In this document: piece after piece, positions 42,689 to 59,062 of the stretch
How positions within the stretch are numbered: the stretch's first letter is position 1
Layout: each line of letters opens with the position of its first letter
Assembly (NCBI RefSeq): GCF_036250695.1
Contig: NZ_CP109427.1
Span: forward strand, 2,976,001 to 3,040,000
Direction of reading: 5' to 3'
DNA: 64,000 nucleotides
Source: Streptomyces sp. NBC_01497
Lineage (GTDB): Bacteria > Actinomycetota > Actinomycetes > Streptomycetales > Streptomycetaceae
Notes under the pieces: model-generated
Told to the model about the DNA's origin: nothing
Databases searched by the model: none
The model's input: only the letters and a program-made list of their open reading frames with translations
Translations under genes and position numbers: made by a program

Positions 42689-43090
42689 CCCGGCGACGAC
42701 CTCCACCGGTCAAGGGCAGGCCCCGGCGCCCCCAACACGACCTCACCGAAGCCGAGTTCACCATCAACCCACAGCGGAAGCCCGCCGACCATGATCGGTC
42801 GGGGCACGGCTCACGGGTCCTGCCGTCGGGCCCGGGCGAGGCCGGGACGGTCGCGGGCCCGGGCAGCGCGGGTGGTCCGCGGGTAAGGCTCGACCCGGCG
42901 AACGGACGGTCCGGACGAGCCCACCGCGCCCATCCCCTGACCGGATCAGCCGCCATTACCCCGCTTTTAACCGCCCGGCCTGCCAGGTTTCATCCCCCGC
43001 CGTTCCGTGTTCACTTTCGCGTCGTCCGTGTTTCTTACGGTGCTCCGACCCCGTACGACTTTCCTCGCGGGGCAGCGACCTTGGAGCAGC

Positions 43091-44620
43091 ATGACTATGG
43101 CCCGCAACCTCCGGCCCGGAACGCGTGGCGAGGGTGGGAAGGCCGCACCGCCCGACGCGGTCCCCGCGGCAACCGTGCCGCCGACCACCCTCGCCGAGTG
43201 CCTGAGCGCCTGCGCCGCGCACAGCGGCAAGCTCGTGGCGGGCCTCGACCGCCGGCGCATCGAACTGGCCGAACGGCTCCGCGCCGCACTGGCCCTGTAC
43301 GCGACGGCGCCGATGCCTCCGCCGGCTCCCGCGGCGGCCGGCGCGGGTGCGACGAGCGGGCTGTTCCGCCGCGCCGCGAGGACACCGGCGGCGGGCAGCG
43401 GGCCCGCGCTGTCCCCCGCATTGCTCGATGCCCTGCTGGAGGTGGGCAGCAAGGCGCTGGAGTGCCCCTACGACGACGAGCGCCGCCTCGCCCTGCTCAT
43501 ATCGGCCGCGGTGCTCACCGAACGCAAGGGCTCCCGCGCGGGCTGGCGGCTGCGCGCCCGGGCCCTGGAGGCCGCGGGCGACGAGGCGGCCTCGATCGCC
43601 GCGTACCAGAACTACCTGGACCGCACCTCCGAGGACGGCTTCGGCATCGTCTCCAAGGTGGCCGGCCTGCGGATCGCCGGACAGCGCCAGGCCGAGATGC
43701 TGGAGGTGCTGGAGCGCGAGTGCCCCACGGCCTCCGCGCACGCGGACGGACCCGCCACCGACACCTGGGCCGAGGGCCTCGCCCTCAACGACGCGGGCGA
43801 CTGGGCGGGCGCCGAGCCGCGCCTCGTCGGCGCGCTCCTCGCCATGGCGCGGCACGACAGCCACGCCGACGACTTCCAGCTGGCCATGGGCGACTACCTG
43901 GACCTGCGCATCCGGCAGCACGACGGCAGCGCCGCGGACCTGCGCGAGCTGATCGGCCTCTACGCGGACCAGCGCAGGAACCGGATGCGCGGCCCGATCG
44001 ACGACCCGACGTTCGGCGACACGGCGTGGCTGAGTCTCGGCGAGTTCCGCAACTGGATCGCCGGTAAATCGATCTGCCTGATAGCCAACTCGGGGAGCGT
44101 CGGCAGGAGTTCGCTCGGCCCGGAAATCGACTCGTACGACCTGGTGGTGCGGTTCAACTCGTATCGGATCGACGCGCCGGCGACCGGTGCCCGCACCGAC
44201 ATCCACGCCTCCATCCACAAGCACAGCTTCAACTGGGACCAGAAGGTCACGACCCGGCTCGTCTTCGGCGGCGTCCCCGGCGACTGGATGTACTCCCTGC
44301 GCAACCGCCTGGTGCCCGGCGCGCAGCGCTACCTCGGCGACGACTCACTGCGCTGGCCGCTGCGCAACATCGGCCGGGTCGGGGCCAACGCCTGGCCCTC
44401 CATCCCCACCACCGGCTTCAACATGCTGTGGCTGCTCGACTTCCTCGACGTCAGCCCGACGCTCGACCTCTTCGGCTTCGACTTCTACGAGAGCGGCGCC
44501 TACCGCCTGAAGGAAGCCATGCGCCAGCCCATCACCTCGGTGCACGAGTACCGGGGCGAGAAGACCTGGGTGATGGAGCGCGCCACCAGCGTGACAGAGA
44601 CAAGGATTTCTTTGCGATGA
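43091..44620 (+). CDS. GT29-type sialyltransferase-like protein
   Basis: A 509-residue two-part protein. Residues 1-320 are helical with TPR-like repeats (LRARALEAAGDEAASIAAYQ, ADDFQLAMGDYLDLR). From about 326 a sialyl-motif-L-like block appears: KSICLIANSGSVGRSSLGPE, then DSYDLVVRFNSYRID and TGARTDIHASI. This matches GT29 sialyltransferases (NSGSLxxSxxGxxID...VRFN). GT29 enzymes use CMP-sialic acid or CMP-Kdn, which the genes at 55.8-58 kb can make. ATG 43091 has GGAG 4 bases before it. It overlaps the next gene by 4 bases (ATGA), so the two work together. Confidence 0.82.
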   Translation: MTMARNLRPGTRGEGGKAAPPDAVPAATVPPTTLAECLSACAAHSGKLVAGLDRRRIELAERLRAALALYATAPMPPPAPAAAGAGATSGLFRRAARTPAAGSGPALSPALLDALLEVGSKALECPYDDERRLALLISAAVLTERKGSRAGWRLRARALEAAGDEAASIAAYQNYLDRTSEDGFGIVSKVAGLRIAGQRQAEMLEVLERECPTASAHADGPATDTWAEGLALNDAGDWAGAEPRLVGALLAMARHDSHADDFQLAMGDYLDLRIRQHDGSAADLRELIGLYADQRRNRMRGPIDDPTFGDTAWLSLGEFRNWIAGKSICLIANSGSVGRSSLGPEIDSYDLVVRFNSYRIDAPATGARTDIHASIHKHSFNWDQKVTTRLVFGGVPGDWMYSLRNRLVPGAQRYLGDDSLRWPLRNIGRVGANAWPSIPTTGFNMLWLLDFLDVSPTLDLFGFDFYESGAYRLKEAMRQPITSVHEYRGEKTWVMERATSVTETRISLR

Positions 44621-46980
44621 CCACCGCCGCGCTCCCCGCCGAAGCCCTCTCCGCGGACGCCCCGCTGCACGCCACGAGCCTCACCGGCAAACGCAGAATC
44701 GCCTTCGCCAGCTTCGTGGACGAGAACTACCTGCCCGGCTTCCTCACCCTCCTGCGCAGCCTGGCCCTGTCGAACCCGGCCGTCTGTGAGGACTTCCTCG
44801 TCCTCCACGAGGATCTGCGCCCCGCCTCCATAGCCCGCATACGCGCCCTGCACCCGCGCATCAGGATGCTGCGGGTCGACGCCGGTCACTACGACTCGTA
44901 CGCGAAGGGCGACCAGCACAACTACCTGGTGCGCAAGGCGTACTTCATCCTCGACGTCTTCCGCGTCCGGGACTACGACACGATCATCACGCTCGACACC
45001 GACATGGTGGTCCTCGGCGAGCTGGACGAACTACTGGAACTGCGCGAGGGGATCGCCGCCGTACCGCAGTTCTTCTACGGTCAGCACAAGCTCAACAGCG
45101 GCCTGCTGGTCATCCAGCGCGAGTACCTGACCGACGAGTTCTGTGCCCGGCTCGACGCCGTCGGCCGCAGCGGCGACTACGAGCTCGACAAGCATGACCA
45201 GGGCATCCTCAACTCCGTCCTGGACGGTGGCTTCGTCCGGCTCGACTCCCGGTTCAACTTCGTCAAACGGCGCCTCTCCGGCGACCTGCCGGTGCCCGAC
45301 GACACCGCGATCCTGCACTTCACCGGCCGCCACAAGCCGTGGCAGGGCGGGGAGGCGGGCTACGCCAAGGCCGAGGAGCGCTGGCGGTCCTACGAACTGT
45401 CCGACGACCAGTTCCGCAGCACGTACATGAACCTGCCGAAGACGCTCCACCACGACCTCGTGGTGCACCTCGGCACGCCGCACGTCGCCCGCACCGGGAA
45501 CCTGGACGGCGCGCGGCGCCTGGCGCAGACGCACCTCGACGCGGGCGAGTACCGGCAGGCCGCCGCCGCGCTCGGCTCGGTGCACATACCCGTCGACGAG
45601 GCGTTCCCGCACGAGGTCTACGGGCGCGCGCTGATGAGCCTGTCCCGCTACAAGGAGGCCGAAGCGCACCTCCTGCTCGCCACGTCCGTGCCGACCCGGG
45701 CGGCGAGCGCCTTCGGCCGGCTCGCCCAGATGGCCTGGATCAACGGCGACGACACCTCGGCGCACGCCTACGCGACGGACGGCCTCGGGATCGACCCCAC
45801 CCACCGCGCCAGCCGCCTGATGAGGGAGCGCACCCATCCCCGCCCGCCGGTCCAGGAGGGCCCCCCGGACGAGCAACTGGCCCACGTGGCCTTCTACATG
45901 CCCCAGCAGGGCAACGCGGGCGACAAGCTGCTCCCGGAGTCCGTACGCCTCACCTTCGGCCAGGACACCGGCCCCCGCCGCTGGCACTCCGTCCACGCGC
46001 ACCGGCTGTTCGACGAGGCCGCGCTCGCAGCGGTCAACGAGCGGCGCGGCGTGGTCATCGGCGGCGGCGGCCTGTTCATCCCGGACACCGCGCCGAACGG
46101 CAACAGCGGCTGGCAGTGGAACGTCACGGACGACGCGATGGACCGGATCGACGTGCCGGTGATCGTGTACGCCGTGGGCTTCAACGCGTTCGACGGCCAG
46201 TCCTACGGCTTCGACCGGTTCCGCACCTCGCTGACCAAGCTGGTGGAGCGTGCGGCCTTCTTCGGGCTGCGCAACCACGGATCCATCGAGAAGGTCCGGG
46301 CCCTGCTCCCCGCCGGCCTGCGGGACAAGGTGCGCTACCAGCCCTGCCCGACGACGGTCACCCGGCAACTGGTCGACGGCTGGAGCGACCCGGCGCGCCG
46401 GGACGACACCGTACTCATCAACGCGGCGTACGACCGGGCGGGGCTGCGGTTCGGCCACGACTACGGCTACTTCCTCGCGCAGATGGCCGAAGCCGTACGG
46501 GCCATCGGCGAGCACGCCGAGGTCAAGTGCGTCGCGCACGCGCTGGACGACGAACGCATCGCGTTCGACCTGCGGCGTGAGCACGGCATCTCGCTTCCCG
46601 TGGTGCCGCTGTACGACGCCGACAACGACGCGATCCGCGCCGAGTTCGCCCGGACGAAGCTCGTCATCGGGATGCGCGGCCACGCGACGATGATCCCGTT
46701 CGGCTGCGGCACACCGGTCATCAGCCTGATCTCGCACCCGAAGATGGCGTACTTCCTCGCCGACATCGACCGCCCCGGCTGGGGCGTCTCGGTCCACGAC
46801 AGACATCTCGGCCGACGGCTCACCGACCTCGCGGTGTCCCTGCTGGACGACCACGGCGCGGCGGTCGCCGACGTCCACGGCCGTCAGCAGGAACTGTGGA
46901 AGATCACCCAGTCCAACGGCGCGGACATCGCCGCCACGCTGTCGCCCCCGAACCGGGGGCTGACACCGCGCGTGGGGTGA
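44617..46980 (+). CDS. GT8 glycosyltransferase / polysaccharide pyruvyltransferase fusion
   Basis: A 787-residue fusion. Residues about 28-270 are a GT8 retaining glycosyltransferase with the metal motif DTD (D127, D129 in TLDTDMVVL) and NSGLLVIQRE. About 300-400 is a TPR-like linker (AAAALGSVHIPVDEAFPHEV, YKEAEAHLLLATSVP). About 423-780 is a pyruvyltransferase (PF04230) domain: AFYMPQQGNAGDKLL, VVIGGGGLFIPDTAPNG, FFGLRNHGSIEKV, GMRGHATMIPFGCGTPVISL. It probably adds a sugar and a pyruvyl ketal to the same polymer. ATG 44617 overlaps the GT29-like gene stop. Confidence 0.88.
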   Translation: MTTAALPAEALSADAPLHATSLTGKRRIAFASFVDENYLPGFLTLLRSLALSNPAVCEDFLVLHEDLRPASIARIRALHPRIRMLRVDAGHYDSYAKGDQHNYLVRKAYFILDVFRVRDYDTIITLDTDMVVLGELDELLELREGIAAVPQFFYGQHKLNSGLLVIQREYLTDEFCARLDAVGRSGDYELDKHDQGILNSVLDGGFVRLDSRFNFVKRRLSGDLPVPDDTAILHFTGRHKPWQGGEAGYAKAEERWRSYELSDDQFRSTYMNLPKTLHHDLVVHLGTPHVARTGNLDGARRLAQTHLDAGEYRQAAAALGSVHIPVDEAFPHEVYGRALMSLSRYKEAEAHLLLATSVPTRAASAFGRLAQMAWINGDDTSAHAYATDGLGIDPTHRASRLMRERTHPRPPVQEGPPDEQLAHVAFYMPQQGNAGDKLLPESVRLTFGQDTGPRRWHSVHAHRLFDEAALAAVNERRGVVIGGGGLFIPDTAPNGNSGWQWNVTDDAMDRIDVPVIVYAVGFNAFDGQSYGFDRFRTSLTKLVERAAFFGLRNHGSIEKVRALLPAGLRDKVRYQPCPTTVTRQLVDGWSDPARRDDTVLINAAYDRAGLRFGHDYGYFLAQMAEAVRAIGEHAEVKCVAHALDDERIAFDLRREHGISLPVVPLYDADNDAIRAEFARTKLVIGMRGHATMIPFGCGTPVISLISHPKMAYFLADIDRPGWGVSVHDRHLGRRLTDLAVSLLDDHGAAVADVHGRQQELWKITQSNGADIAATLSPPNRGLTPRVG

Positions 46981-47001
46981 GTCCGCGCCGGGGCGCAGGG
47001 G

Positions 47002-47187
47002 TGGTGGGCCGACGCCGCGGGCGGGCCCGCCACCCCGCCCACGAACGACTGCGTCGAGGTGGCAGCCGGACAACTCCGGGACATGCTCCCCGTACGCGAC
47101 TCCGCGAACCCGACCGGCCCGGCCGTCGTTCTCGACCCCGGCGCCTGGACCGCGTTCCTCACCGGTGTGCAGCGCGACCACCTCGTC
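47002..47187 (+). pseudogene. Remnant of a DUF397 gene
   Basis: In the frame that continues past the GT8 gene stop lie WWADAAGGPATPPTNDCVEV and then LPVRDSANPTGPAVVLDPGA and WTAFLTGVQR. This is the DUF397 pattern (W...CVEVA...VRDS..P.GP...F....W.AF..G). No start codon precedes the first half in frame; only an internal GTG (47059) is available. The protein is therefore probably broken. No WhiJ-type partner is adjacent. The remaining stretch to 47526 holds a hairpin and the promoter of the next gene. Confidence 0.55.
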
Positions 47188-47201
47188 CGATGCGAGGGTG
47201 A

Positions 47202-47240
47202 GGCAGGGCCCCGGCCCCCACCAGGGTCGGGGCCCTTGCC
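47202..47240. terminator. Hairpin between the GT8/pyruvyltransferase and eCIS-core genes
   Basis: GGCAGGGCCCCG pairs with CGGGGCCCTTGCC with one bulged T and a 14-base loop. It separates the GT29/GT8 unit from the next gene. Confidence 0.6.
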
Positions 47241-47526
47241 GTACCCGGACATCGTCGCGGGCCGCCCCGTCGCGCGGGGAAAGTCGTCAAGGCCGCCGCC
47301 GGACTCCGGGGTCAACAACACGTGACGCCGGCCGTCACGTCGCACCGGACCGGCGCGGTGCGGATGCACACGGGTCCCCGGACAGGCCGGACGACGATGC
47401 CGCGTTGTCCGGTCGATGTGCCCGATGGTCCGGCACCGCTGCACTTTTTGACCTCCCGTGGGCGCCCGGACTGCGCCTAGATTTTCCTCGGATGCTCCGG
47501 TCGCATCCGACGACGGAGGTACGCAG

Positions 47527-49737
47527 ATGACCCGCAAGGAACCCGCGAACCAGGCCCGCGGGGTCACCGGCGGCCACTCGCCGCTGCTGAGGTCCGACGC
47601 GGCCCGGGGCCCCGCGCCGCAGGACCCGGGCGGGCTCCTGGCGCTGCAGCGCTCGGCGGGCAACGCCGCGGTGGTGCAGATGCTGCGCCATCTCGACGCC
47701 ACCGGTCCGACGGGGACCGAGGCCGAGCCCGACATGGGCAGCGTCGTGAAGAAGGTGATCTCCGGGAGCGGGCAGCCGTTGCGGACGGCGCAGCGCAAGA
47801 AGGCCGAGTCCGTCTTCAACGAGAACTTCTCCGGGGTCCGCCTGCACACGGACGCGGCCGCGCAGCGCTCCGCGGCCGTCCTCCAGGCACGTGCCTACAC
47901 GGTCGGCGACAACATCGTCAGTGGCACCGCCGAGATCGACGACAGGACTCTCTTCCACGAGCTGACGCACGTCTCGGACCAGCGCAAGGGGCCCGTCGCG
48001 GGCACCGACCACGGCGACGGGACGGTCAGGTCGAGCCCGGACGACCCGTTCGAGAGGAAGGCCGCGGCGAACGAGCGTCTCGCCGACGGTCCCTCCGCGC
48101 CGGAACACCACGCGGGGGACGGGCACGCCCACGGCACGACCGTGCAGCGCGCGCCGGCCGGGCCCGCGACCGTGCAGCGCGCGCCGGCCGGCGACGGCAC
48201 GGAACAGGGCAAGGAGACCGAGGGGAGCGAGCACGTGCGCCGCCGTGTGCTCGTCGTCTGCGACGAGAGCGGCCAGGGCCTCGGCGGTGTGCCCGTCTTC
48301 AACATGGAGATGGTCAAGGGCCTCCAGCACGACAACGAGGTCACCCTGCTCACGGTGAACAACCGCGAGAGCTACGACCACTCCAAGACGGTGCGGCAGC
48401 ACGGCGGCGCCCGAGTGATCAATGTCCTCGTGCCCGAGCTGAAGGCGGGCCGCGAACGCCTGGTCCAGCTGGTGGCGAGCAAACCGCCGCAGGCGTACGG
48501 ACTCCCCGCCGCGCGGGACGCGTTCGACATCATCATCGGCCACTCGCGGTTCTCCGGCCCCGCCGCCGAGCTGATGTGTTTCGGGTGGTACCCCGGCGCC
48601 CGCCTGGTGCACTTCCTGCACACGAGTCCGGTGCGTCTGGACAAGGTCAACGACAAGCCCGGCACGGGCGCCCAGAAGGCGAGGACCGAACGCCAGGTGA
48701 TGCGCGAGGCCGACCTGGTCTCCGGGGTGGGCCCCTTGCTGACGCAGGAGGCGGAACGGCTGTCGCAGCAGATCTTCCGGGTGGCGGCCCTGCACGAGTT
48801 CGTGCCGGGGACCGAGATCAACTCTCCCCTGACCCACTCGGCTCCCGGCCCGCGCAGGCTCGATCTGCTCCTGCCGGGCCGCGCGACCGACGCGATCAAG
48901 GGCGTCCGGGCTGCGGTGACGGCCATCGGGATGCTGCGCCGTCCCCAGTCGATGGGCGGATACGGCCTCGACGTCAGGCTGACGATCCGGGGCGGCCCGG
49001 ACCCGAAGGAGGCCCCCGACGAGTACGGGAAGTGGCAGAGCCTCGTCACCAGCCTCGGTGCGGGGGGCGTCACGCTGCTGCCCTTCACCCCCGACGCCGA
49101 GAAGCTGAACAGGGACCGCCAGGGCAAGGACGCGGTGATCATGCCGTCCCTGCACGAGGGGTTCGGCCTGGTCGCCACTGAGGGTGCCGGGAACGGCATC
49201 CCCGTCCTGGTGAACGGGGAGAGCGGCGCCGCCCAGTTCCTGGCGCAGTTCCAGGGCCTGACCGGGCACATGACGGTCGACGCCCCGTACAACGTCGACC
49301 GGGAGACGGGCAAGGAGGTCGAGGGAGGCGACGAGCGGCGCGCCCGGGCGTGGGCAGAGGCCATCGCGAGGCTGCAGAGCAGGCTGCCCGCCGCCCAGCA
49401 GGACGCCGCCCAGCTCCACCAGGTCCTCACGCACTACACCTGGCGGCACGCGGCCCAGGCCCTCGTCGAGGCGACGATGGCGACCGTCCCGGGCAGTGGG
49501 CCGAACCACGGCGCCATCACCCGGCAGGGCCCCGACGGCACTGTGGAGCACGTCGGGCGGCGCACGGAATGGACTCCCACCGAGCGCTGGGACGGCTCGA
49601 CCCCCGAGCCGAGCACCCGGAGGCCGAGCGAGCAGGAACTCCTGCAGCGTCTCGCCGTCATACGCCAGACCCTGGACCTGCGCACGGATGTGGGTGCGCA
49701 GGAGACCAGGCGGGCCAGGAGGACCGGCACCATGTGA
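47527..49737 (+). CDS. eCIS-core (DUF4157) / GT4-type glycosyltransferase fusion
   Basis: A 736-residue protein. An N-terminal LLALQRSAGNAAVVQML block is typical of DUF4157 proteins. DUF4157 (eCIS core) follows, about residues 75-160, with SVFNENFSGVRLHTDAAAQR and the metallopeptidase-like HELTH at 144-148. A spacer repeats TVQRAPAG twice. A GT-B glycosyltransferase occupies about 238-660: RRRVLVVCDESGQGLGG at the start and the GT4 E-x7-E motif EGFGLVATE (E544, E552). DUF4157 marks contractile-injection-system cargo. A GGAGG site lies 8 bases before ATG 47527. No injection genes are in the window. Confidence 0.85.
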   Translation: MTRKEPANQARGVTGGHSPLLRSDAARGPAPQDPGGLLALQRSAGNAAVVQMLRHLDATGPTGTEAEPDMGSVVKKVISGSGQPLRTAQRKKAESVFNENFSGVRLHTDAAAQRSAAVLQARAYTVGDNIVSGTAEIDDRTLFHELTHVSDQRKGPVAGTDHGDGTVRSSPDDPFERKAAANERLADGPSAPEHHAGDGHAHGTTVQRAPAGPATVQRAPAGDGTEQGKETEGSEHVRRRVLVVCDESGQGLGGVPVFNMEMVKGLQHDNEVTLLTVNNRESYDHSKTVRQHGGARVINVLVPELKAGRERLVQLVASKPPQAYGLPAARDAFDIIIGHSRFSGPAAELMCFGWYPGARLVHFLHTSPVRLDKVNDKPGTGAQKARTERQVMREADLVSGVGPLLTQEAERLSQQIFRVAALHEFVPGTEINSPLTHSAPGPRRLDLLLPGRATDAIKGVRAAVTAIGMLRRPQSMGGYGLDVRLTIRGGPDPKEAPDEYGKWQSLVTSLGAGGVTLLPFTPDAEKLNRDRQGKDAVIMPSLHEGFGLVATEGAGNGIPVLVNGESGAAQFLAQFQGLTGHMTVDAPYNVDRETGKEVEGGDERRARAWAEAIARLQSRLPAAQQDAAQLHQVLTHYTWRHAAQALVEATMATVPGSGPNHGAITRQGPDGTVEHVGRRTEWTPTERWDGSTPEPSTRRPSEQELLQRLAVIRQTLDLRTDVGAQETRRARRTGTM

Positions 49738-49788
49738 TGCGGGAGCGCCGCCGGGCGTGCGGGGCGGGCTCATGGAGGCCGGGCGCGG

Positions 49789-49814
49789 CCCGGCGCGCTC
49801 AGCCGCGCGCCGGG
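49789..49814. terminator. Hairpin between convergent eCIS-core and acyltransferase genes
   Basis: CCCGGCGCGC pairs with GCGCGCCGGG (10 bp, 6-base loop). It overlaps the acyltransferase stop codon region and can serve both genes. Confidence 0.55.
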
Positions 49815-51169
49815 CGGGAGGCTCGTCCCGCCGAGCGCGCCGCGTCCGTCAGCCGGGAGCGCAGCCGGGGCGTCAGCGGGCGTTCCACCACGCGGTGCAG
49901 GAGGTACGCCAGGAGCAGCATCGCCAGCACCGTCAGGGGGAGGGTGGCACCGGCCGGGAGGCCCAGGGTGCGGTGCAGGCCGCCGATGACCACCCAGCCG
50001 AGGTGTTCGTGGACCAGGTAGAAGGGGTACGTGAGCGCGCCGGCGGTCGTCAGCCAGCGCCAGTCGGCCCAGCGCAGGCGGTCCAGCGCGATGGCGGCGA
50101 CCGCCGCGAAACCCAGTGCGACGATCGCGATGATGACCACGGTGTGCCGGTAGCCGAAGTGGCTGGTGGGGTGCCAGAGGTCCGCGACGGCGTAGTGCTG
50201 GCCCAGCAGGAAGCCGACGGCGGCGAGCCCCCAGCCGAGGGGGTCGCGGTGGTCGCGGTGCACCAGGTAGAGCCCCATCCCGCCGACGAAGAACGGCGCG
50301 TAGTGGGACATGAGGACCTGGTCGAGCAGCGCCGAGTGCGCGGCGTCGGCGAGGACCGCGCCGAGCGTCCACAGCGCGCCGAACAGGACGACCCGCCGGC
50401 GCGTCACCCCGGGGAGGACGACACACACCGCGAACAGCGCGTAGAAGCGGATCTCGGCCCACAGGGTCCAGTCGACACCGATGACCCGCTCACCGCCCGC
50501 CGGCATCTGCAGGAGGGTCAGGTTCAGCAGGGCGTCGCTCGTCGACACCGCCTCGTACACCACGCCCGGCAGGGCGAAGACGGCGGTGATGAGGAGGACC
50601 GCGCACCAGTACGCGGGCATCAGCCGGGACACGCGCGAGGCGAAGAACGCGGCGAGCGAACGGCCCCAGCCGCTCATGCAGATCACGAACCCGCTGATGA
50701 CGAAGAAGATCTGCACACCGAGCGGTCCGTACGCGAACCACTGGTGCAGTGACGGGAACTGGGTGGCGGGCGAGGTCCCCCACGCCGTGCTGACGTCGCC
50801 CTCGCGGCCCCCGTAGTGGTACGCCGCCACCATGAGCGCCGCGACCAGCCGCAGCCCGTCGAGGGCGCGCAGCCGCGCCGGCCGGGCACCGCGCGGCCGG
50901 CCGCCGGGACCGGGTCCCGTTCCTCCCGGCGCCCGGCCGGCCGGCGGCGTACGGTCCCCGGCCGGCGTCACCGGGCCGCCGGGGAGGGGCGTCGCGGCCC
51001 GCGCCGCACCTGCGGGGGTGCCGGTGCCCGCGCCCGTGGTCGTGCTGCTGCCCGCGTCCACGTTCATGTCCCTGTCCGTGTTCGTCTTCGTGCCCGTGCC
51101 GTTGACCGCGTTGCCGCGCGCGTTCCCGTCCGTGTTCGTGCCCGTGCTCGCGTGCGGAGCGGACGTCAC
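49799..51169 (-). CDS. Acyltransferase family 3 (OafA/YrhL-like)
   Basis: A 456-residue membrane O-acyltransferase. The first 90 residues are a Thr/Gly/Pro-rich cytoplasmic arm. The membrane part begins LRALDGLRLVAALMVAAYHY, where the catalytic His is in the AYHYGG block. A second signature is QIFFVISGFVICMSGWGRSL, and about 10 TM segments follow to a basic tail. It probably transfers acetyl groups to a surface glycan, fitting its place in the glycan region. I take GTG 51169 as start, with AAGGGA before it; an upstream GTG/ATG is possible. Confidence 0.85.
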   Translation of the reverse strand: MTSAPHASTGTNTDGNARGNAVNGTGTKTNTDRDMNVDAGSSTTTGAGTGTPAGAARAATPLPGGPVTPAGDRTPPAGRAPGGTGPGPGGRPRGARPARLRALDGLRLVAALMVAAYHYGGREGDVSTAWGTSPATQFPSLHQWFAYGPLGVQIFFVISGFVICMSGWGRSLAAFFASRVSRLMPAYWCAVLLITAVFALPGVVYEAVSTSDALLNLTLLQMPAGGERVIGVDWTLWAEIRFYALFAVCVVLPGVTRRRVVLFGALWTLGAVLADAAHSALLDQVLMSHYAPFFVGGMGLYLVHRDHRDPLGWGLAAVGFLLGQHYAVADLWHPTSHFGYRHTVVIIAIVALGFAAVAAIALDRLRWADWRWLTTAGALTYPFYLVHEHLGWVVIGGLHRTLGLPAGATLPLTVLAMLLLAYLLHRVVERPLTPRLRSRLTDAARSAGRASRPARG

Positions 51170-51658
51170 CGGATTCCCTTCGCCTCGGCACCGCTGGGAC
51201 CGGGACTGCGGGCTCGTACGCCCGGCAGGCGGCCGGTGTGTTTCCCGGCCCGTACGCCCGGCCCGTACGCCCCGCTCGGGCACCCGGGTCACAAGCCCGG
51301 CCGGCGACCCGACAGGTGACCTGGCGCGTTCCCCGGCCCCGGCCGAGTCCCGCCGGTTCCCGTCGCTCCCCCGCCACGCTAGGGGCCAGGCGCCCCCCGC
51401 CCAAGCGCGGAAGGGGCATTGCGCAGGGACGTCACAGCACGTTCATCCGCCCTTTCACCAGGCGATTCGTCACCACGGCCACCGGCCGCCGGGCATCGCC
51501 GCCGTCGCGGGCGCGGGCGGGGGCACTTGAGCGGGCCGCCCCGCTGCAGCCGTGCGCCGTTGCCCCGGCGATCTCCGGGGCACGGATCATGCGTCGCTGG
51601 GGAGAGCCTTCACCGGGGTCCTCGCGGGTTCTGGTGCGACGGGACGAGGGGGCGCGCG

Positions 51659-51850
51659 GTGGACCGACTGCGCGACGCCCACGGCTTCACGTCCGGTGAA
51701 CCGGCCGAGTTCCGGGCCACGGTGGAACACCCGGACTTCACCGACCTGTGCCTCGCCGACATCGCCGCCCGGGGTCACCGTCCGCCCCGGCGAGCCGCAC
51801 GGGAGCGCCGACGAGGCCCCGCAGCACCCGCGCTCCGGCGGCTGCGGGAC
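51659..51850 (+). pseudogene. Possible frameshifted short gene, unknown
   Basis: From GTG 51659, with AGGGGG 6 bases before it, there is a stretch with strong coding bias: VDRLRDAHGFTSGEPAEFRA, then TVEHPDFTDLCLADIAA. Near 51770 the good codon pattern moves into the neighbouring frame (GVTVRPGEPHGSADEAPQ). This looks like one protein broken by a single-base shift. I recognise no family. It ends in a 9-bp tandem repeat (CTGCGGGAC x4, 51842-51877). The rest of the gap from 51170 shows nothing. Confidence 0.3.
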
Positions 51851-51885
51851 CTGCGGGACCTGCGGGGCCTGCGGGCCGGGCGCGG

Positions 51886-53277
51886 TCAGGCCTTGGCCTC
51901 CCCCGCCGCCAGCCGCTTCAGCGACCTGACCCGGCGCACGACTCCCCGCACCCGTGCGTTGCGCGGGATGAACGCCATCCGGGCCGGCACTCCGCCCGGC
52001 AGGTCGAGCACCGTGAGGCGGCGGCGCTTGAAGTAGCGCAGCGCGTCCGGGCTCTGATGGGCGCGCAGGTACTCCACCGCCGGCTCCCGCAGGTCCGGGT
52101 TGATCTTCGGCTGCATCGCGAAGCCCACCGCCGCGAGGAGCCCCGTCAGACCGTCCGAGGCGGCATCGAGGCGCTGCGCCTCTACGGCCGCGCTGTCGCC
52201 CACGTCGGGCAGCAGCTCGTGGCAGATCGTCACGGGCACCCGGTTGCTGTTCTCGTACGGGGCGAGCCGTTCGAGCAGCAGGCCCGTGCCGGCGCGCGCG
52301 ACGCGGAGCCCGTAGAACGACGCCGCGGTGAACAGCGCCGTGGAGAAGCATCCGACGACGAGGCCCGGCCGCAGCCGCTGGTAGAGCACCTCGGCGATGA
52401 CCGGCGCGTCGACGATGGTGAGCTCCACGCCGAGCCGCTCCGCCTCCTCCTCCAGGCGGCGGGAGAAGCGCGCGGGAGCCGTGGGGTGCGGCTTGAAGAC
52501 GACGCGGCGGTGGCCGAGCCCGTGGGCGCCGCGCAACATCGTCAGATGCAGTTCCTCCTCCTCGTCGGAGGTGAGGATGGACAGCGCGGAGAGGTACTGG
52601 CCCAGCAGGAGCGCCGGGCGCCCGGCGGCCGGTGTGCCGTCGTCGTCCGGCCCGGGCGGGGCGTCGGGGACGCCCGGCAGCTCCGGGGCGTCGCCACCGA
52701 TCTCGGCGAGGACCTTGAGGAACACCTCGGTGGGTACGACCACCGGCTCGGCGCCGAACTCCCGCAGCAGCATGGGCCGCAGGCCGGGGACGAGGTCGAG
52801 GTGCAGGACACGGCCGATCCGGGTGCCGATCAGCGGCGGGATCTTGTTGCGGGTGGGCCCGTAACTCATCAGCCCGTCCGCGTAGATGTCGATGGCGGCC
52901 CCGGTGAAGATGTCCGTGACGGCCAGCGCGGGCACCACCTGGATCGACTCGGCCACGAGGTGCACGGGGTCGTCGCCGAGGTTCCACAGCAGCCGCAGGT
53001 GGCGTTCCCACAGCACGACGTCGTCGGGGCGCGGGGACCAGGCGCCGGGGTGGAAGGGGTGGATGGCCTCGTTCCACGACAGGACCTCGTCGAAGCGGTC
53101 CCTCAGGCGCTCGAAGCCGGACATCTCGTCGAGCCCGGGCGTGGCCTCGGGGTTGGCCGCGTTGTTGGACACGAGCAGGATGGTGCGGCGGGCCGGTTCG
53201 AAGCATTCGGCGTCCAGGGCGGCCGCCAGCGTGGCGGCGCCGTAGAGGGTGGACGCGAGGAAGATGCGGGTGGTCAT
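51886..53277 (-). CDS. Polysialyltransferase-like protein (PF07388-type)
   Basis: A 463-residue protein resembling alpha-2,8-polysialyltransferases: MTTRIFLASTLYGAATLAAA, RRTILLVSNNAANPE and IDIYADGLMSYGPTRNKIP (the HP-type and donor-site region cannot be assigned exactly). The C-terminal part contains HRRVVFKPHPTAPARF and YQRLRPGLVVGCFSTALFTA, the usual KPHP and S/T-T end motifs of the family. It probably elongates a Kdn or sialic-acid chain from CMP-sugar at the inner membrane. ATG 53277 overlaps the GT2 stop (ATGA). Confidence 0.82.
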   Translation of the reverse strand: MTTRIFLASTLYGAATLAAALDAECFEPARRTILLVSNNAANPEATPGLDEMSGFERLRDRFDEVLSWNEAIHPFHPGAWSPRPDDVVLWERHLRLLWNLGDDPVHLVAESIQVVPALAVTDIFTGAAIDIYADGLMSYGPTRNKIPPLIGTRIGRVLHLDLVPGLRPMLLREFGAEPVVVPTEVFLKVLAEIGGDAPELPGVPDAPPGPDDDGTPAAGRPALLLGQYLSALSILTSDEEEELHLTMLRGAHGLGHRRVVFKPHPTAPARFSRRLEEEAERLGVELTIVDAPVIAEVLYQRLRPGLVVGCFSTALFTAASFYGLRVARAGTGLLLERLAPYENSNRVPVTICHELLPDVGDSAAVEAQRLDAASDGLTGLLAAVGFAMQPKINPDLREPAVEYLRAHQSPDALRYFKRRRLTVLDLPGGVPARMAFIPRNARVRGVVRRVRSLKRLAAGEAKA

Positions 53278-54323
53278 GCGGCTGCCTCCGCGGGAGCCTG
53301 GCGGCGGCGCAGCTTGACGAGCTGGCTCGCACGCCGGTGGTCGAGAGAGGTCAGGGTGTCGTCCAGTACGTCCTGCGGCATTCTGCGCAGGGCGGCGGCG
53401 CTCATCGTCTTCAGCTGCCGGGCGACGCCGGGCTCGAACCGTTCGATCTGGCCCAGGTGGTGGGTGATGATCGCGCAGTAGGTGCGGACGGCCTTCGGCA
53501 TCAGCCGGTCCGCCTCCGCGTCCGTCGACGTCTCGCGCAGCAACTGGTCGAAGGCGGCGATGAAGTCGAGCTGGCGGGTGTCGCCGATCTGGGTGAGCGA
53601 GGACTCGACCCCGCGCCGGTAGTAGTAGCCGAGGTGGTTGACCGCGGCGCAGGACTCGGCCTCCCGGTGCAGCTTCCAGATCCAGGGCCGGTCCTCGGCG
53701 GTGTGCAGACCCTCGGGGAAGGCCATCAGGCCCGCGTCGTAGAGCCGCCGGTGGAACAGTCCGGCCCACGAGTACGGGTAGTCGACGGACGTGGAGCGGG
53801 TGTCGGGCAGGATCAGGTCGCGGGGACGCAGGACGGTGCCGCGCGGGCCGATCGGCGCGCGGTAGACGGTGCGCGCGCGGGCCGTGCAGCGGACCTGGTC
53901 GGTGCGGATGAAGTCCACACCCAGTCTCTCGATCTCGCCGACGAGCGCCGGCAGGTAGCCGCGCGCCAGCCAGTCGTCACCGTCGAGAAATGTCAGGTAC
54001 TCCCCGCTCGCGGCGTTCAGGCCCGTGTTGCGCGCGGTGCCGATACTGCTGTTCTTCTCGTGTCTGATCTGGCGTACCTCGCAGCGGAATTCCCGTGCGA
54101 AATCTGCCACCGCTTCGGACGAGCCGTCGGTGGAGCAGTCGTCCACGAAAACGACCTCGTCGTTCTCGCTGACGTTCGCACGCAGGCTTCGCAGTGCTTC
54201 GGTGATGAAAGGCCGCACATTGAAGTACGGCACGATGACGGAGAGCTTGACCACTCCGGGGACGCTAGGGGCTGTCCCGGCTCGGTTACCCAAGATCCGG
54301 CGTACGGCAGGTGAACGGCGCAT
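53274..54323 (-). CDS. GT2-family glycosyltransferase
   Basis: A 349-residue GT-A inverting glycosyltransferase. The domain begins VVKLSVIVPYFNVRPFITEA, with VFVDDCSTDGSSE and the metal motif FLDGDDWLARG (DGDD). A basic C-terminal tail follows. ATG 54323 is chosen because AAGGA lies 6-7 bases before it. Co-translated with the polysialyltransferase-like gene, and divergent from the DUF6716-like gene. Likely role: a sugar transfer in polymer or linker synthesis; acceptor unknown. Confidence 0.88.
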   Translation of the reverse strand: MRRSPAVRRILGNRAGTAPSVPGVVKLSVIVPYFNVRPFITEALRSLRANVSENDEVVFVDDCSTDGSSEAVADFAREFRCEVRQIRHEKNSSIGTARNTGLNAASGEYLTFLDGDDWLARGYLPALVGEIERLGVDFIRTDQVRCTARARTVYRAPIGPRGTVLRPRDLILPDTRSTSVDYPYSWAGLFHRRLYDAGLMAFPEGLHTAEDRPWIWKLHREAESCAAVNHLGYYYRRGVESSLTQIGDTRQLDFIAAFDQLLRETSTDAEADRLMPKAVRTYCAIITHHLGQIERFEPGVARQLKTMSAAALRRMPQDVLDDTLTSLDHRRASQLVKLRRRQAPAEAAA

Positions 54324-54396
54324 GTCGGAATCCTTAATCACCCCTCGAAGTGGCCGCTTTCCCCATTCGTAGACGTTCTGTTAACCCTTTATTGCC

Positions 54397-55776
54397 ATGG
54401 AGTTGGGCCGCCGCCCGACATGGCTTTCTAACGTCCAGGACGTGCCATCACGTACCAGCCACGCGGTCAGGGTCGCCGTACTCGCCGATTCCGACACCCG
54501 GTGGAAGTGGGGCGCGCTCACCGCGCGCCGCATCGTCCCCGGGGGCCGCACCGTCGAGCTCAGCGGCTTCCTCCTGCGCGGCCGCGCCACGCCCACCGCC
54601 CGCCAACTGGCCGAGGTGGGGGCGGAGGCGAGCGATGTCCGGGAGATCACCGGGAACGCCTTCCTCTCCTTCCTCGCCGAGGAGCAGGACGAGCGGGGCG
54701 GGTACGACCTGATCGTCCTCGCCCTCGTCGGCGGCGGGGTGCAGGCGATGCTGCACGGCATCGCCGCGCTGGACCTCGCCCGGCGGCCCGTCGTCGTCAC
54801 CGGCTACGTCGGGGTCGTCTACGAGAAGCTCGCCGACGGGCTCCTGCTGCGGCACGGTGCCGATGTCGTCCTCGCCAACTCCCGGCACGACGCGCACCGC
54901 TTCCGTGACGTGTACGAGGGCGTCGGCGCCGACGCGTCGTGCGTGACCGAGGCGGCCCTGCCGTTCCTCGGCGGCGCCCGCTACGAGCCGGTGGAGGGCC
55001 GCGACACGGTCGTCTTCGCGGCGCAGCCGTCCGTACCGGTGACGCGCGAGGACCGCGCGTACGTCCTGCGGCGGCTGATCGAGCACGCCCGGCTGCACCC
55101 GCGCCGCGAGGTGCTGCTGAAGCTGCGCAGCAAGGTCGGCGAACAGACCACCCACGTCGAGGAGTTCCCCTACCAGCGGCTCGCGGAGAAGGTGCCCGGC
55201 GGGCTGCCGTCCAACTTCCGCCTCGTGTACGGGAACATGGGCGACGTCCTGGACGGCACGGACCTCCTCGTGACGGTCTCCTCGACGGCCGCGCTCGAAG
55301 CGCTGCACCGGCGCATCCCCACCGCGATCCTCACCGACCTCGGGATCCGCGAGCCCCTCGGCAACCACCACTTCGTCGGCTCCGGCTGCCTCGCCTCCTT
55401 CGACCACCTGGACAGCGGGCAGAAGCCGCGCGCCGACGCGGTCTGGGCGGACCGGCAGGGCGTCGCCGCGGACGGCTCGTACGCGGCGGCCTTCGACCAG
55501 GCCCGCGCCCGGGTGGCGACACTGCTCGACGATCCCGCACTCCCGCCCATCGCCCCCTACTACACCCGCACCACGGCCCCCGGCTACCTGCCGCAGCTGC
55601 TCGCCAGACACCGCCTCGACCCGGACGGCCGGCCGCTCGCGCCGGGTGCCGCGCCGGCCGGCTCGTCCGGCATGCGCCGGGCCGTGCGCCAGGCCGTACG
55701 CGGCGCCGCGCGCGGCGCGTACCGCCACGGCGTGCAGCGCGTCGCGCCCGTCATCCGCCGGATGGGCGAGCTGTGA
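54397..55776 (+). CDS. DUF6716-like putative glycosyltransferase
   Basis: A 459-residue protein beginning the conserved region with RVAVLADSDTRWKWGALTAR, as in the DUF6716 family, which is found in actinobacterial surface-glycan clusters. Middle blocks include VVVTGYVGVVYEKLADGLLL and SRHDAHRFRDVYEGVGADA; the C-terminal region LVTVSSTAALEALHRRIPTA recalls the donor-site of GT-B/polysialyltransferase folds. No catalytic residues can be assigned. Neither start is strong: ATG 54397 and GTG 54442 are both possible. It is followed by the CMP-sugar synthetase gene after 38 bases. Confidence 0.78.
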   Translation: MELGRRPTWLSNVQDVPSRTSHAVRVAVLADSDTRWKWGALTARRIVPGGRTVELSGFLLRGRATPTARQLAEVGAEASDVREITGNAFLSFLAEEQDERGGYDLIVLALVGGGVQAMLHGIAALDLARRPVVVTGYVGVVYEKLADGLLLRHGADVVLANSRHDAHRFRDVYEGVGADASCVTEAALPFLGGARYEPVEGRDTVVFAAQPSVPVTREDRAYVLRRLIEHARLHPRREVLLKLRSKVGEQTTHVEEFPYQRLAEKVPGGLPSNFRLVYGNMGDVLDGTDLLVTVSSTAALEALHRRIPTAILTDLGIREPLGNHHFVGSGCLASFDHLDSGQKPRADAVWADRQGVAADGSYAAAFDQARARVATLLDDPALPPIAPYYTRTTAPGYLPQLLARHRLDPDGRPLAPGAAPAGSSGMRRAVRQAVRGAARGAYRHGVQRVAPVIRRMGEL

Positions 55777-55814
55777 AGGAAGCCGGCCGTACCCCACGAA
55801 CCCACGGAGCAGAC

Positions 55815-57032
55815 ATGACCGTCCTCGCCGTGATCCCCGCACGCGGGGGATCGAAGGGCGTGCCCGCGAAGAACCTCGCCCAGGTCGGCGGCGTACCCCT
55901 GGTGGTGCGGGCCGTACGGGCCTGCCGGGCGTCGCGCAAGGTCACCGACGTGGTCGTCTCCACCGACGACCCGGCGATCGCCGACGCGGCACGCGCGGCG
56001 GGCGCCGAGATCGTGCTGCGGCCCGCCGCGATCGCCGGGGACACGGCGACCAGCGAGGCGGCCGTGCTGCACGCGATGGACGCCTTCGAGGCGATGCGCG
56101 CCGTCACGGTCGACGTGGTGCTGCTGGTGCAGTGCACCAGCCCCTTCATCACCGCCGAGGACATGGACGGGGTGGCGGGCGCCATCACGGACGAAGGCGC
56201 CGACACGGCCCTGACGGTCGCGCCGACCCACGGTTTCATCTGGCGCGAGGGCGGCGCGACGAGCGCCGAGGTGGACGGCTACGGCGTCAACCACGACAAG
56301 TCCAACCGGCCGCGCCGCCAGGACCGCCCCCAGGAGTACCTGGAGACGGGCGCCGCGTACGCCATGCGCGCCGACGGCTTCCGCGAGGTGGGCCACCGCT
56401 TCTTCGGCCGTACGAAGCTGGTGGAGACCGACGCGGCGCGCGTCCTGGAGATCGACGACCCGCACGACCTGGCCCGCTCCCGCGCGCTCGCGCCGCTGCT
56501 CGACCCGGCGGTGCTGCCGGGACTCCAGGACGTGGACGCGGTCGTCCTCGACTTCGACGGCACGCAGACCGACGACAAGGTCTACGTCGACTCGGAGGGC
56601 CGCGAGATGGTCGCCGTGCACCGCGGCGACGGTCTCGGTGTGGCCGCGCTGCGCAAGTCCGGCCTGGAACTGCTGGTGCTCTCCACCGAGCAGAACCCGG
56701 TCGTCGCGGCCCGCGCCAGAAAGCTCAAGGTGCCGGTACTGCACGGCATCGACCGAAAAGATCTCGCACTGAAGCAATGGTGCGACGAGCACGGGGTCAC
56801 ACCCGAACGGGTGCTCTACGTCGGCAACGACGTGAACGACCTCCCGTGCTTCGGACTCGTCGGCTGGCCCGTGGCCGTCGCGAGTGCCCATGACGCCGTT
56901 CGCGCAGCCGCGCGCGCCGTCACCACGACCCCGGGCGGCGAAGGGGCGATCCGCGAGATCGCCGGCTGGCTGCTGGGGCCGGGGCTGCATGTCCCCGCTC
57001 CGCACCTTCCCCCCACCCACGCCCACAACTAA
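55815..57032 (+). CDS. CMP-nonulosonate synthetase / HAD phosphatase fusion
   Basis: A 405-residue fusion. Residues 1-225 are a NeuA-type cytidylyltransferase: VIPARGGSKGVPAKN (CTP binding), LVQCTSPFITAEDM and YLETGAAYAM. From about 240 a HAD phosphatase like KdsC/KDO-8P phosphatase follows: DFDGTQTDDKVYVDSEGREM (D246, D248) and YVGNDVNDLPCFGLVG. Together they would remove a phosphate and activate Kdn or a sialic acid as its CMP-sugar. ATG 55815 has GGAG at 55806. It is 9 bases before the NeuB-like gene. Confidence 0.92.
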   Translation: MTVLAVIPARGGSKGVPAKNLAQVGGVPLVVRAVRACRASRKVTDVVVSTDDPAIADAARAAGAEIVLRPAAIAGDTATSEAAVLHAMDAFEAMRAVTVDVVLLVQCTSPFITAEDMDGVAGAITDEGADTALTVAPTHGFIWREGGATSAEVDGYGVNHDKSNRPRRQDRPQEYLETGAAYAMRADGFREVGHRFFGRTKLVETDAARVLEIDDPHDLARSRALAPLLDPAVLPGLQDVDAVVLDFDGTQTDDKVYVDSEGREMVAVHRGDGLGVAALRKSGLELLVLSTEQNPVVAARARKLKVPVLHGIDRKDLALKQWCDEHGVTPERVLYVGNDVNDLPCFGLVGWPVAVASAHDAVRAAARAVTTTPGGEGAIREIAGWLLGPGLHVPAPHLPPTHAHN

Positions 57033-57041
57033 GGACAGTTC

Positions 57042-57968
57042 ATGAACACCGACGCCTCTTCCCGCCTGCGCAAGCTGGGTTCGCGCACGGCCGGACCCGG
57101 TCGTCCCGTCTTTGTCACGGGTGAGATCGGGATCAACCACAACGGCGAGCTCGACAACGCGATCGCGCTGATCGACGTCGCCGCCGAGGCCGGCTGCGAC
57201 GCGGTCAAGTTCCAGAAGCGCACGCCGGAGATCTGCACCCCGCGCGACCAGTGGGACATCGAGCGCGACACCCCCTGGGGCCGGATGAAGTACATCGACT
57301 ACCGCCACCGCGTGGAGTTCGGCGAGGACGAGTACCGCGCCATCGACGAGCACTGCAAGGAGAAGGGCATCGCCTGGTTCGCCTCCCCGTGGGACACCGA
57401 GGCGGTCGCGTTCCTGGAGAAGTTCGAGTCGATCCCCGCGCACAAGGTCGCCTCGGCGTCCCTGACCGACGACGAGCTGCTGCGCGCGCTGCGCGCCACC
57501 GGCCGTACGGTCATCCTCTCGACCGGCATGTCGACGCCGAAGCAGATCCGGCACGCCGTCGAGGTGCTCGGCAGCGAGAACATCCTGCTGTGCCACGCCA
57601 CCTCGACGTACCCGGCGAAGGCCGAGGAGCTCAACCTGCGGGTCATCAACACCCTGCAGAACGAGTTCCCGAACGTCCCGATCGGCTACAGCGGCCACGA
57701 GACGGGCCTGCAGACCACGCTCGCCGCGGTCGCCCTCGGCGCCACCTTCGTCGAGCGCCACATCACCCTGGACCGCGCGATGTGGGGCTCCGACCAGGCC
57801 GCGTCCGTCGAGCCGCAGGGCCTCACGCGCCTCGTGCGCGACATCCGCACCATCGAGGCGTCCCTCGGTGACGGCGTGAAGAAGGTCTACGAGTCCGAGC
57901 TCGGCCCGATGAAGAAGCTCCGCCGTGTCGCGGGCGTCGTGGCCGAGGCCGACGCGGCGCAGGACTGA
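57042..57968 (+). CDS. NeuB-like nonulosonic-acid synthase, no SAF domain
   Basis: A 308-residue NeuB-type aldolase that condenses PEP with a sugar (for Kdn, mannose or mannose-6-phosphate). Motifs: VTGEIGINHNGELDNAIALI, DAVKFQKRTPEICTP, GIAWFASPWDTEAVAFLEKF and IGYSGHETG. The C-terminal SAF/antifreeze-like domain of bacterial NeuB (which reaches about 345 residues) is absent, and the protein ends after KKLRRVAGVVAEAD. AAGGA precedes ATG 57042. It lies between the synthetase and the last glycosyltransferase in one operon. Confidence 0.9.
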   Translation: MNTDASSRLRKLGSRTAGPGRPVFVTGEIGINHNGELDNAIALIDVAAEAGCDAVKFQKRTPEICTPRDQWDIERDTPWGRMKYIDYRHRVEFGEDEYRAIDEHCKEKGIAWFASPWDTEAVAFLEKFESIPAHKVASASLTDDELLRALRATGRTVILSTGMSTPKQIRHAVEVLGSENILLCHATSTYPAKAEELNLRVINTLQNEFPNVPIGYSGHETGLQTTLAAVALGATFVERHITLDRAMWGSDQAASVEPQGLTRLVRDIRTIEASLGDGVKKVYESELGPMKKLRRVAGVVAEADAAQD

Positions 57969-57979
57969 CGGCGCGGGCC

Positions 57980-59062
57980 ATGCCGAGTCCGAGCGGGGAA
58001 CGAGCCCCGCGCCGCCGCGACCTCCGCGCCCGAACGGCGATCGCGTTCGTGGAGAGCCCCGTCCAGCTGCTGAACGTGCTGGAGTGGGCGAGGACGGGTG
58101 GGAGGGGCGACGACCTGACCGTTGTCGTGCTCTCACCCACCGACCCGATGTCGCGCGGCCAGCTCCGCAGGATGGCCGAGCTGGCCCGCGACGAGGGCTG
58201 CACGGTGCGCTGGCAGGAGGCGAGGGGCGGCGCGGGGGCCCCGCTCAAGACGGTGCGCCAACTGGCGCCCCTGCTGCACCGGTCGGGCCGGATCGTGATC
58301 GGCGATCCGTTCTCCCGGTATGTGCAGCTGCTGCTCACGATGGCCGGCGGCAAGAGGCTGACCGTCGTCGACGACGGCACGGCGACGATGGAGTTCATCG
58401 GTCAGCTCGCGCGCGGCGAACGCCTGGTGCGCTGGCACCGGCGCGGCGGCCCCCGCGGGCCCCGTGAGCTCGTCCTCGCCCCCGTCACGGCGGCGGCCCG
58501 CCGCCGCCTGACCCCGACCGACGCCCGTTCGGTGGAGGTGTTCACCTCGATGCCGGTGCAGGAGGTGCCGCGAGGCATCGACGTGACGGAGAACCGCTTC
58601 GAGTGGACCCGCGCCACGTTCGGCCCGCCGAAGATCCTCGACGGCGCCGACCTCGTCGGCACCTCGCTGGTGGAGACGGGCGTCGTGGACGACGCGCAGT
58701 ACACCGAGGCGGTCACGTCCCTGGCGCGCGAGCACCGCGCCATCCGCTACTTCGCGCACCGCCGCGAGAACGCCGAGAAGCTGCACGCGCTGCACGCGGC
58801 GACCGGTCTGGAGATCGTCCGCCCCGACCTGCCCCTGGAGCTGGTGGCCCGCCGGGGCCCGATCAGCAGGACCATCCTCAGTTTCCCGTCCACGGTCGTG
58901 CACACCCTGCCGCTGGCCCTCGCGGGCACCGGGGTGAAGGTCGCGGTCTGCGACATCGCCCCGGAGTGGCTCAGGGCCAACGCGTCCCCGCGCGCGCAAG
59001 GCTTCCTGTCGGGCGTGACCAGCGCGGCGAAGGACGTCCACCGGCTGGTGACACCGGCGTAA
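57980..59062 (+). CDS. Polysialyltransferase/GT52-like protein
   Basis: A 360-residue protein starting with the block IAFVESPVQLLNVLEWARTG. The SPxQ motif is found in GT52 and polysialyltransferase-like enzymes. Further blocks: GRIVIGDPFSRYVQLLL, GGKRLTVVDDGTATMEFI, IRYFAHRRENAEKLHAL and SFPSTVVHTLPLALAGTGVK (donor-binding end region). It begins 11 bases after the NeuB-like gene, so it belongs to the same operon. It likely transfers Kdn or sialic acid from CMP-sugar; linkage unknown. Confidence 0.8.
   Translation: MPSPSGERAPRRRDLRARTAIAFVESPVQLLNVLEWARTGGRGDDLTVVVLSPTDPMSRGQLRRMAELARDEGCTVRWQEARGGAGAPLKTVRQLAPLLHRSGRIVIGDPFSRYVQLLLTMAGGKRLTVVDDGTATMEFIGQLARGERLVRWHRRGGPRGPRELVLAPVTAAARRRLTPTDARSVEVFTSMPVQEVPRGIDVTENRFEWTRATFGPPKILDGADLVGTSLVETGVVDDAQYTEAVTSLAREHRAIRYFAHRRENAEKLHALHAATGLEIVRPDLPLELVARRGPISRTILSFPSTVVHTLPLALAGTGVKVAVCDIAPEWLRANASPRAQGFLSGVTSAAKDVHRLVTPA

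Follow-up and report, generated by a model that had tools for sequence, protein, structure and literature searches.

A gene in the Streptomyces sp. NBC_01497 window (the whole stretch of DNA that was analysed, 64,000 nucleotides) encodes a protein in which a DUF4157 domain, the eCIS core domain, is joined to a GT4-conflict glycosyltransferase domain. We consider it moderately probable that this protein is an orphan cargo of a contractile injection system (CIS), wherein the core domain would provide docking and the GT4 domain would modify a target in the cytoplasm. Features that support a cargo function, as judged from sequences, include the completeness of both domains, the presence of a CIS in the same genome, the co-occurrence of core and sheath genes in the genus, invariant residues, the pattern of selection, and the placement of most fusions in one main clade. 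Counted against it are the distance of the gene from the CIS genes, an N-terminus that is only a partial fit, a ricin-lectin protein that is encoded in the CIS cluster, DUF4157 proteins that occur outside of CISs, a relative (P0017) that has no core domain, and the lack of a significant PDB fold match for the core domain.

Domain organization of the fusion protein

An earlier note on this DNA had proposed the union of DUF4157 and GT4 domains, and this is confirmed by Pfam matches above the curated cut-offs for both (Table 1). The start codon is an ATG with GGAGG located just 5′ of it, and the frame has a GC content at third positions of 0.93. A mechanical ORF call opens earlier, at a GTG at 47458; the ATG matches the start of most relatives in the alignment; P0014, P0015 and P0020 begin later. 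The designation ‘eCIS core domain-containing protein’ is already in use in NCBI entries.

Table 1. Features of the fusion gene (window positions) and of the CIS cluster in the same genome
Feature	Position	Strand	Evidence
Whole gene, DUF4157 (eCIS core)–GT4-conflict fusion, 736 codons, from ATG to the end of the stop codon	47527..49737	+	frame list, translation, Pfam
Low-confidence (disordered) leader with LQRSAGNAAVV, residues 1-66; predicted helix 35-56	47527..47724	+	AlphaFold
eCIS core domain PF13699, residues 84-155; HELTH 144-148	47776..47991	+	Pfam, model
Linker, mostly disordered, residues 187-236; two VQRAPAG stretches	48085..48234	+	sequence, AlphaFold
GT-B glycosyltransferase GT4-conflict PF20706, residues 242-646	48250..49464	+	Pfam, alignment, structure comparison
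C-terminal tail, residues 647-736; W682, W688 and G690 partly conserved in fusions	49465..49734	+	alignment
CIS cluster: AAA-WHD ATPase, ricin-lectin protein, sheath, tube, CIS_tube-LysM, spike hub (Phage_base_V, Phage_GPD), gp25, baseplate J, Tail_P2_I	C1:2,804,070-2,820,835		profile matches

AlphaFold models both the core domain and the GT4 domain with good confidence. The core domain (mean pLDDT 87.6) scores 63.4 bits against a Pfam cut-off of 22 and covers positions 1-78 of the 79-position profile. Its best fold match in the PDB is a metallopeptidase zymogen (E 1.9), such that the fold search gave no significant match, and a sequence profile search of the PDB returned a single chain with an E value of 0.71. 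The lack of a significant PDB match does not count against the Pfam assignment.

The GT4-conflict domain matches its profile over the full length (positions 1-385 of 385) with 288.6 bits against a cut-off of 26. The E-x7-E motif reads EGFGLVATE and begins at residue 544. Residues R452, K458, E544 and E552, together with those of the HExxH motif, are invariant in all 21 aligned fusions among the matches listed. We take E-x7-E and the basic residues at 452 and 458 to have the catalytic and phosphate-binding roles of their counterparts in GT4 enzymes. The description of this half in the earlier note as a complete-looking GT-B enzyme with E-x7-E is thus borne out by the full-length profile match, the GT-B fold and the presence of catalytic residues. 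Judged from its sequence and predicted structure, the domain is an intact-looking retaining GT-B enzyme with a fold like that of MshA, an enzyme of mycothiol biosynthesis (PDB 3c4q). However, the protein scores only 37.7 bits with the NCBIfam MshA model, far under the cut-off of 462.5. MshA uses a UDP-sugar donor, and the similarity suggests a donor of the same kind for the fusion, although it is too remote to decide the matter.

Both the LQRSAGNAAVV leader and the two VQRAPAG spacers that had been pointed out beforehand are present. They had also been read as marks of CIS cargo. According to pattern counts, such elements are typical of DUF4157 proteins in these bacteria, and as marks of loading they are putative. 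Among the matches listed, a strict leader pattern, which misses LQRSIGN-type leaders, was found in 19 of 21 fusions, in 30 of 48 other DUF4157 proteins and in one of 51 GT4 proteins without DUF4157, the last being P0017, which is nested among the fusions. At least one VQR occurs in 21/21, 47/48 and 14/51 proteins of these same groups, and HExxH in all 21 fusions and all 48 other DUF4157 proteins, again among the matches listed. The N-terminus of the fusion is hydrophilic (mean −0.45 over 50 residues) and disordered, carries a charge of +1 at residues 6-21 and has no aromatic residue in its first eight positions. By sequence, this corresponds only in part to the signal-peptide-like loading traits described for eCIS toxins (PMC11297309).

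Contractile injection systems in the genome and the genus

The earlier note had treated the lack of a CIS cluster in every carrier genome as grounds to abandon its proposal. Instead, all seven fusion genomes examined have a sheath gene. In the genome of the window there is one sheath match (C1:2,809,213), located 214 kb from the fusion gene (C1:3,023,527) in a cluster that includes the main structural genes of a CIS, and the sheath is present in all six of the other full-fusion genomes (G199, G200, G201, G202, G204 and G205). In this survey of 13 genome entries, G133 and G203 have identical coordinates and are counted as one genome. As a rough control, genomes encoding GT4 proteins without DUF4157 were divided, with the sheath found in G207 and G209 and absent from G206 and G208.

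The count of seven out of seven carries little weight alone because sheath genes are common in the genus, being present in 129 of 199 genomes. The eCIS core is present in 128 of these 199 genomes. Sheath and core occur together in 126 genomes, three have the sheath only and 68 have neither, and therefore DUF4157 is a reliable pointer to the possession of a CIS in this genus, even when its gene is distant. The eCIS core without a sheath was seen in two of the 128 core-bearing genomes. Elsewhere, DUF4157 has been described outside of CISs, both in T6SS effectors (PMC6899460) and beside ripC in mycobacteria (PMC12067865).

Almost all published eCIS toxins are encoded no more than ten genes away from the last core gene (PMC11297309), a distance that is usual rather than strictly defining. 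At 214 kb from the sheath, the fusion gene lies outside of this reach. Other DUF4157 genes are similarly dispersed: in 20 genomes (at most five contigs each, chosen such that all sheath and core matches are listed), 17 of 33 eCIS core matches reside within 25 kb of a sheath gene, and the remaining 16 lie at distances above 200 kb or on a different contig. We suggest that such orphan DUF4157 genes belong to the cargo repertoire. Apart from the fusion, the window's genome has no eCIS core match; in each of the six further genomes with the fusion, there are between one and five additional matches.

The CIS of the window's genome has no need of the fusion as cargo, because an effector-type ricin-lectin protein is already encoded within the cluster. 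This protein (L003:11487-12899) is located directly upstream of the sheath gene and resembles, in a comparison by domain only, the published Streptomyces CIS effector of the Sco4257/4258 ricin-lectin type (PMC10066040). A ricin-lectin-like frame is also found beside the sheath gene in loci L061, L064 and L065, and in L081 and L086 there is an intervening eCIS core frame. Two further genes of this region deserve mention. A 1,168-residue frame within the cluster (L003:16221-19724) contains VQR in several places and matches no Pfam family, and a serpin-like protein (PF00079, E 2.5e-21) is encoded a few kilobases upstream of the cluster (L003:3367-4758).

Gene neighbourhood of the fusion

The surface-glycan genes that the earlier note placed around the fusion are real. 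The gene is flanked by genes for a GT8 plus pyruvyl transferase protein, an acyltransferase, an alpha-2,8-polysialyltransferase, a GT2 enzyme, a DUF6716 protein and NeuB. Window positions 43007-59062 make up a nonulosonic-acid-type glycan region, with NeuB, the alpha-2,8-polysialyltransferase, a weak match to GT29 sialyltransferases, the GT8-pyruvyl transferase fusion and DUF6716.

These neighbours raise the option, also put forward in the earlier note as a self-acting glycosyltransferase, that the protein is a housekeeping surface-glycan enzyme of this NeuB/polysialyltransferase-like region that uses its core domain for docking. In favour of this option, the glycan genes and their order are kept in one of the seven other loci that encode relatives (L006 of L006-L012), from Streptomyces sp. 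8L. Even there, however, 5.8 kb with five predicted frames that have no counterpart in the window separates the upstream glycan genes from the fusion, and the other six loci differ in their neighbours: L007 and L012 share another context, and L008, L009, L010 and L011 each have a context of their own. Moreover, a gap of 546 bp separates the upstream frame from the start of the fusion gene, the gene that follows is convergent with it, and other GT4-conflict proteins are toxin-like or linked to conflict systems. Because only L006 retains the glycan genes, we regard this context as local and reject the surface-glycan function as the main reading; we consider it very unlikely.

A search of the seven relatives' loci with eleven proteins of the window genome's own CIS gave no match. 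Likewise, no neighbour that might serve as an immunity-like partner is conserved across the eight loci (the window and L006-L012) among frames of at least 60 codons, a threshold that might let a very small partner escape notice. Beyond the two shared contexts there were only scattered matches, with 25-47% identity and in unlike places. These involve TetR-like frames of L006, L007, L011, L012 and the window, an FAD monooxygenase that the window has in common with L011, and frames shared by L007 and L008 and by L008 and L009.

The orphan location of the gene, away from the CIS, would also suit a cytosolic defence protein, in which DUF4157 senses an incoming phage tail or an injection device of foreign origin. 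The GT4 domain would then modify this target or kill the cell, with no loading into a CIS. Such a function would be in keeping with the prediction that GT4-conflict domains are effectors of counter-invader systems (PMC8195603), and with the co-elution of a DUF4157 protein with baseplate proteins (PMC11126660). However, PADLOC yielded no model that matches the fusion or its eight window neighbours, no neighbour is conserved across unlike loci, and the eCIS core tracks the possession of a CIS, given that a sheath is present in 126 of 128 core-bearing genomes. We therefore judge a defence function to be unlikely.

Proposed mode of action

If the fusion is indeed a CIS cargo, its leader and DUF4157 domain would direct it to the spike or baseplate, as is suggested by the behaviour of other DUF4157 proteins, and it would thereby be loaded in the tube. 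DUF4157 proteins have been reported as cargo in the tube of AlgoCIS (PMC8894135), and a DUF4157 effector of S. davawensis co-elutes with baseplate proteins (PMC11126660). Firing of the CIS would then release the fusion, and its GT4 domain would be expected to transfer a sugar from a nucleotide-sugar to some molecule in the cytoplasm that it reaches, disabling that molecule. The Streptomyces CIS is described as cytoplasmic and as required for stress-induced death of the producer (PMC10066040). Given this, and since there is no conserved immunity-like neighbour, the likeliest place of action would be the producer's own hypha or colony, and delivery into competitors would come second.

Homologues, tree and selection

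Among the 120 matches listed of 512 homologues (7,992 candidates scored), 21 proteins including the query have both domains, and these come from Streptomyces, Streptacidiphilus, Streptantibioticus and Kutzneria. A search of the genus by protein covered five candidates per genome. A tree of GT4 domains was built from 77 rows after P0030 and P0069 were dropped, as their aligned domains were too short. In this tree, 20 of the 21 fusions among the matches listed are held by a single clade (support 99/90). This clade has 23 rows and includes P0017, P0023 and P0024, which lack a DUF4157 match, P0024 being a partial record. P0032, which has a long branch, is the only fusion outside of the main clade. 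We do not argue that the fusions all go back to one event, as the tree needs two label changes and a single origin appears in 6% of bootstrap trees. A mobile plasmid gene was likewise dismissed: none of 25 plasmid records covers 80% of the query, and among the 20 of these matches that were listed, only the DUF4157 part is matched.

Simple Nei-Gojobori estimates of dN/dS, made for two pairs over short stretches with no significance test, are 0.16 for the core domain, 0.27 for the GT4 domain and 0.98 for the linker when comparing the window with L006, and 0.24, 0.36 and 0.71, respectively, when comparing L007 with L012. On these sequence estimates, the core and GT4 domains are under purifying selection and the linker is near-neutral.

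That the core domain has the lowest dN/dS and always retains HExxH among the matches listed, next to a near-neutral linker, might also be expected of a self-processing proenzyme. Its DUF4157 part would act as a zinc protease and cleave the VQR linker to release the GT4 domain, with any link to a CIS being secondary. A precedent of sorts is VgrG2b, a DUF4157-type protein whose catalytic site is needed for antibacterial activity (PMC6899460). By contrast, the metalloprotease motifs are dispensable for the effect of Cgo1 (PMC8894135), and the structure comparison of the core domain described above gave no significant match to a protease. Self-processing of this kind seems to us distinctly unlikely.

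The relative from S. griseoviridis (P0017, L010:9863-11749) bears on the cargo reading in two ways. It has kept the leader, VQR and GT4 domain and has lost the core domain in frame, and it nests within the fusion clade. The only eCIS core match in this genome adjoins the sheath gene (G203 C19: core 129260, sheath 127375) and belongs to a frame of 323 residues, which has a leader of this kind and two VQR stretches. The loss of the core domain together with a separate core frame beside the sheath fits a core domain that is supplied in trans. Supply of DUF4157 in trans has been proposed for eCIS toxins (PMC11297309), and in S. lividans the small DUF4157 protein Sle2 binds the cargo Sle1 (PMC13277306). 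This is a single case known from sequence. It also makes clear that a protein can keep its GT4 part after the core domain is lost.

Relation to known systems

The proposal in the earlier note of a CIS-cargo architecture with a glycosyltransferase stands with regard to the cargo-type architecture, the intact-looking GT4 domain and the CIS in the genome. Its claim of a new toxin or modifier class was overstated, because the GT4-conflict domain was predicted as an effector of conflict systems in 2021 (Kaur 2021, PMC8195603) and a glycosyltransferase payload of Afp has been published (PMC4518317, PMC10598620). DUF4157 is, in turn, an established mark of eCIS-associated proteins (Geller 2021, PMC8213781). 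No description of a DUF4157-GT4 fusion was found in searches of the open-access literature, where a tabulated mention in supplements is possible, and in the two papers that mention DUF4157, contractile injection and glycosyltransferases together, the glycosyltransferase passages are unrelated. Thus, the parts are known, and it is their combination, not found in print, that we regard as new.

The glycosyltransferase Afp18 of Yersinia has a fold of class GT-A. It belongs to a phage-tail-like injection system, as is proposed for the fusion, but it is a Rho-modifying enzyme unlike the GT4 domain, the two being set apart by description rather than by sequence comparison (Jank 2015, PMC4518317; PMC10598620). 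The eCIS-associated DUF4157 toxins (PMC8213781, PMC11297309) have in common with the fusion an N-terminal DUF4157 domain, a linker, a C-terminal enzyme domain and a CIS in the genome. Unlike them, the fusion has a GT4 glycosyltransferase as its enzyme and a gene that is 214 kb from the CIS, and it is a putative toxin. The string ‘glycosyl’ is absent from the main text of PMC8213781, and in the main text of PMC11297309 it occurs only in the title of a cited Yersinia paper and within a GPI word. Sle1/Sle2 of S. lividans (PMC13277306) and Tme of S. davawensis (PMC11126660) are likewise Streptomyces CIS cargo tied to DUF4157, but their cargo parts are described as tape-measure-like or nuclease and their genes reside in the CIS cluster.

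The GT4-conflict domains of Kaur 2021 (PMC8195603) share with the fusion the full-length profile, the retaining GT-B fold and the catalytic residues, and PF20706 itself would seem, from its family name, to rest on that study. There the domains are coupled to STAND NTPases, ternary systems, AP-GTPases or giant secreted toxins, whereas in the fusion the partner is DUF4157; the terms ‘eCIS’ and ‘DUF4157’ are absent from the main text of that paper. The fusion, being conserved and having an enzyme part that can be identified, offers a handle on whether DUF4157 loads a defined payload and on the payloads of Streptomyces CISs. The same holds for the possible toxicity of the GT4-conflict domain, hitherto an effector by prediction, and for the target that it would glycosylate.

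A giant GT4 protein in the same genome

The genome of the window also carries an open frame of 9,706 residues (G000:C1:4646678-4675798, which runs from 6678 of L072 into L073 to 15798). The predicted protein has an N-terminal WXG100-like domain (PF25547, E 2e-23) and seven GT4-conflict domains that are 49-53% identical to that of the fusion, all with PSLHEGFGLVATE. Giant secreted toxins of actinobacteria with GT4 domains have been described (Kaur 2021, PMC8195603, with no mention of WXG), and therefore the 9,706-residue protein probably belongs with them. That one genome encodes both this protein and the fusion is in favour of an effector role for the GT4 module. More tentatively, and with rather less confidence than we place in the cargo reading itself, sugar transfer by GT4-conflict domains could be a shared warhead of actinobacterial conflict that reaches its targets by two unrelated delivery routes in one genome, as CIS cargo and as a WXG100-type giant protein. 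DUF4157 would then be an exchangeable loading adaptor, acting in cis in the fusions and in trans in S. griseoviridis.

In the GT4 tree, six of the seven copies in the giant protein, which are arranged in series, are mutually close and group tightly together with P0035. The remaining copy is placed beside the fusion clade with support of 95/76, and this is not a firm branch.
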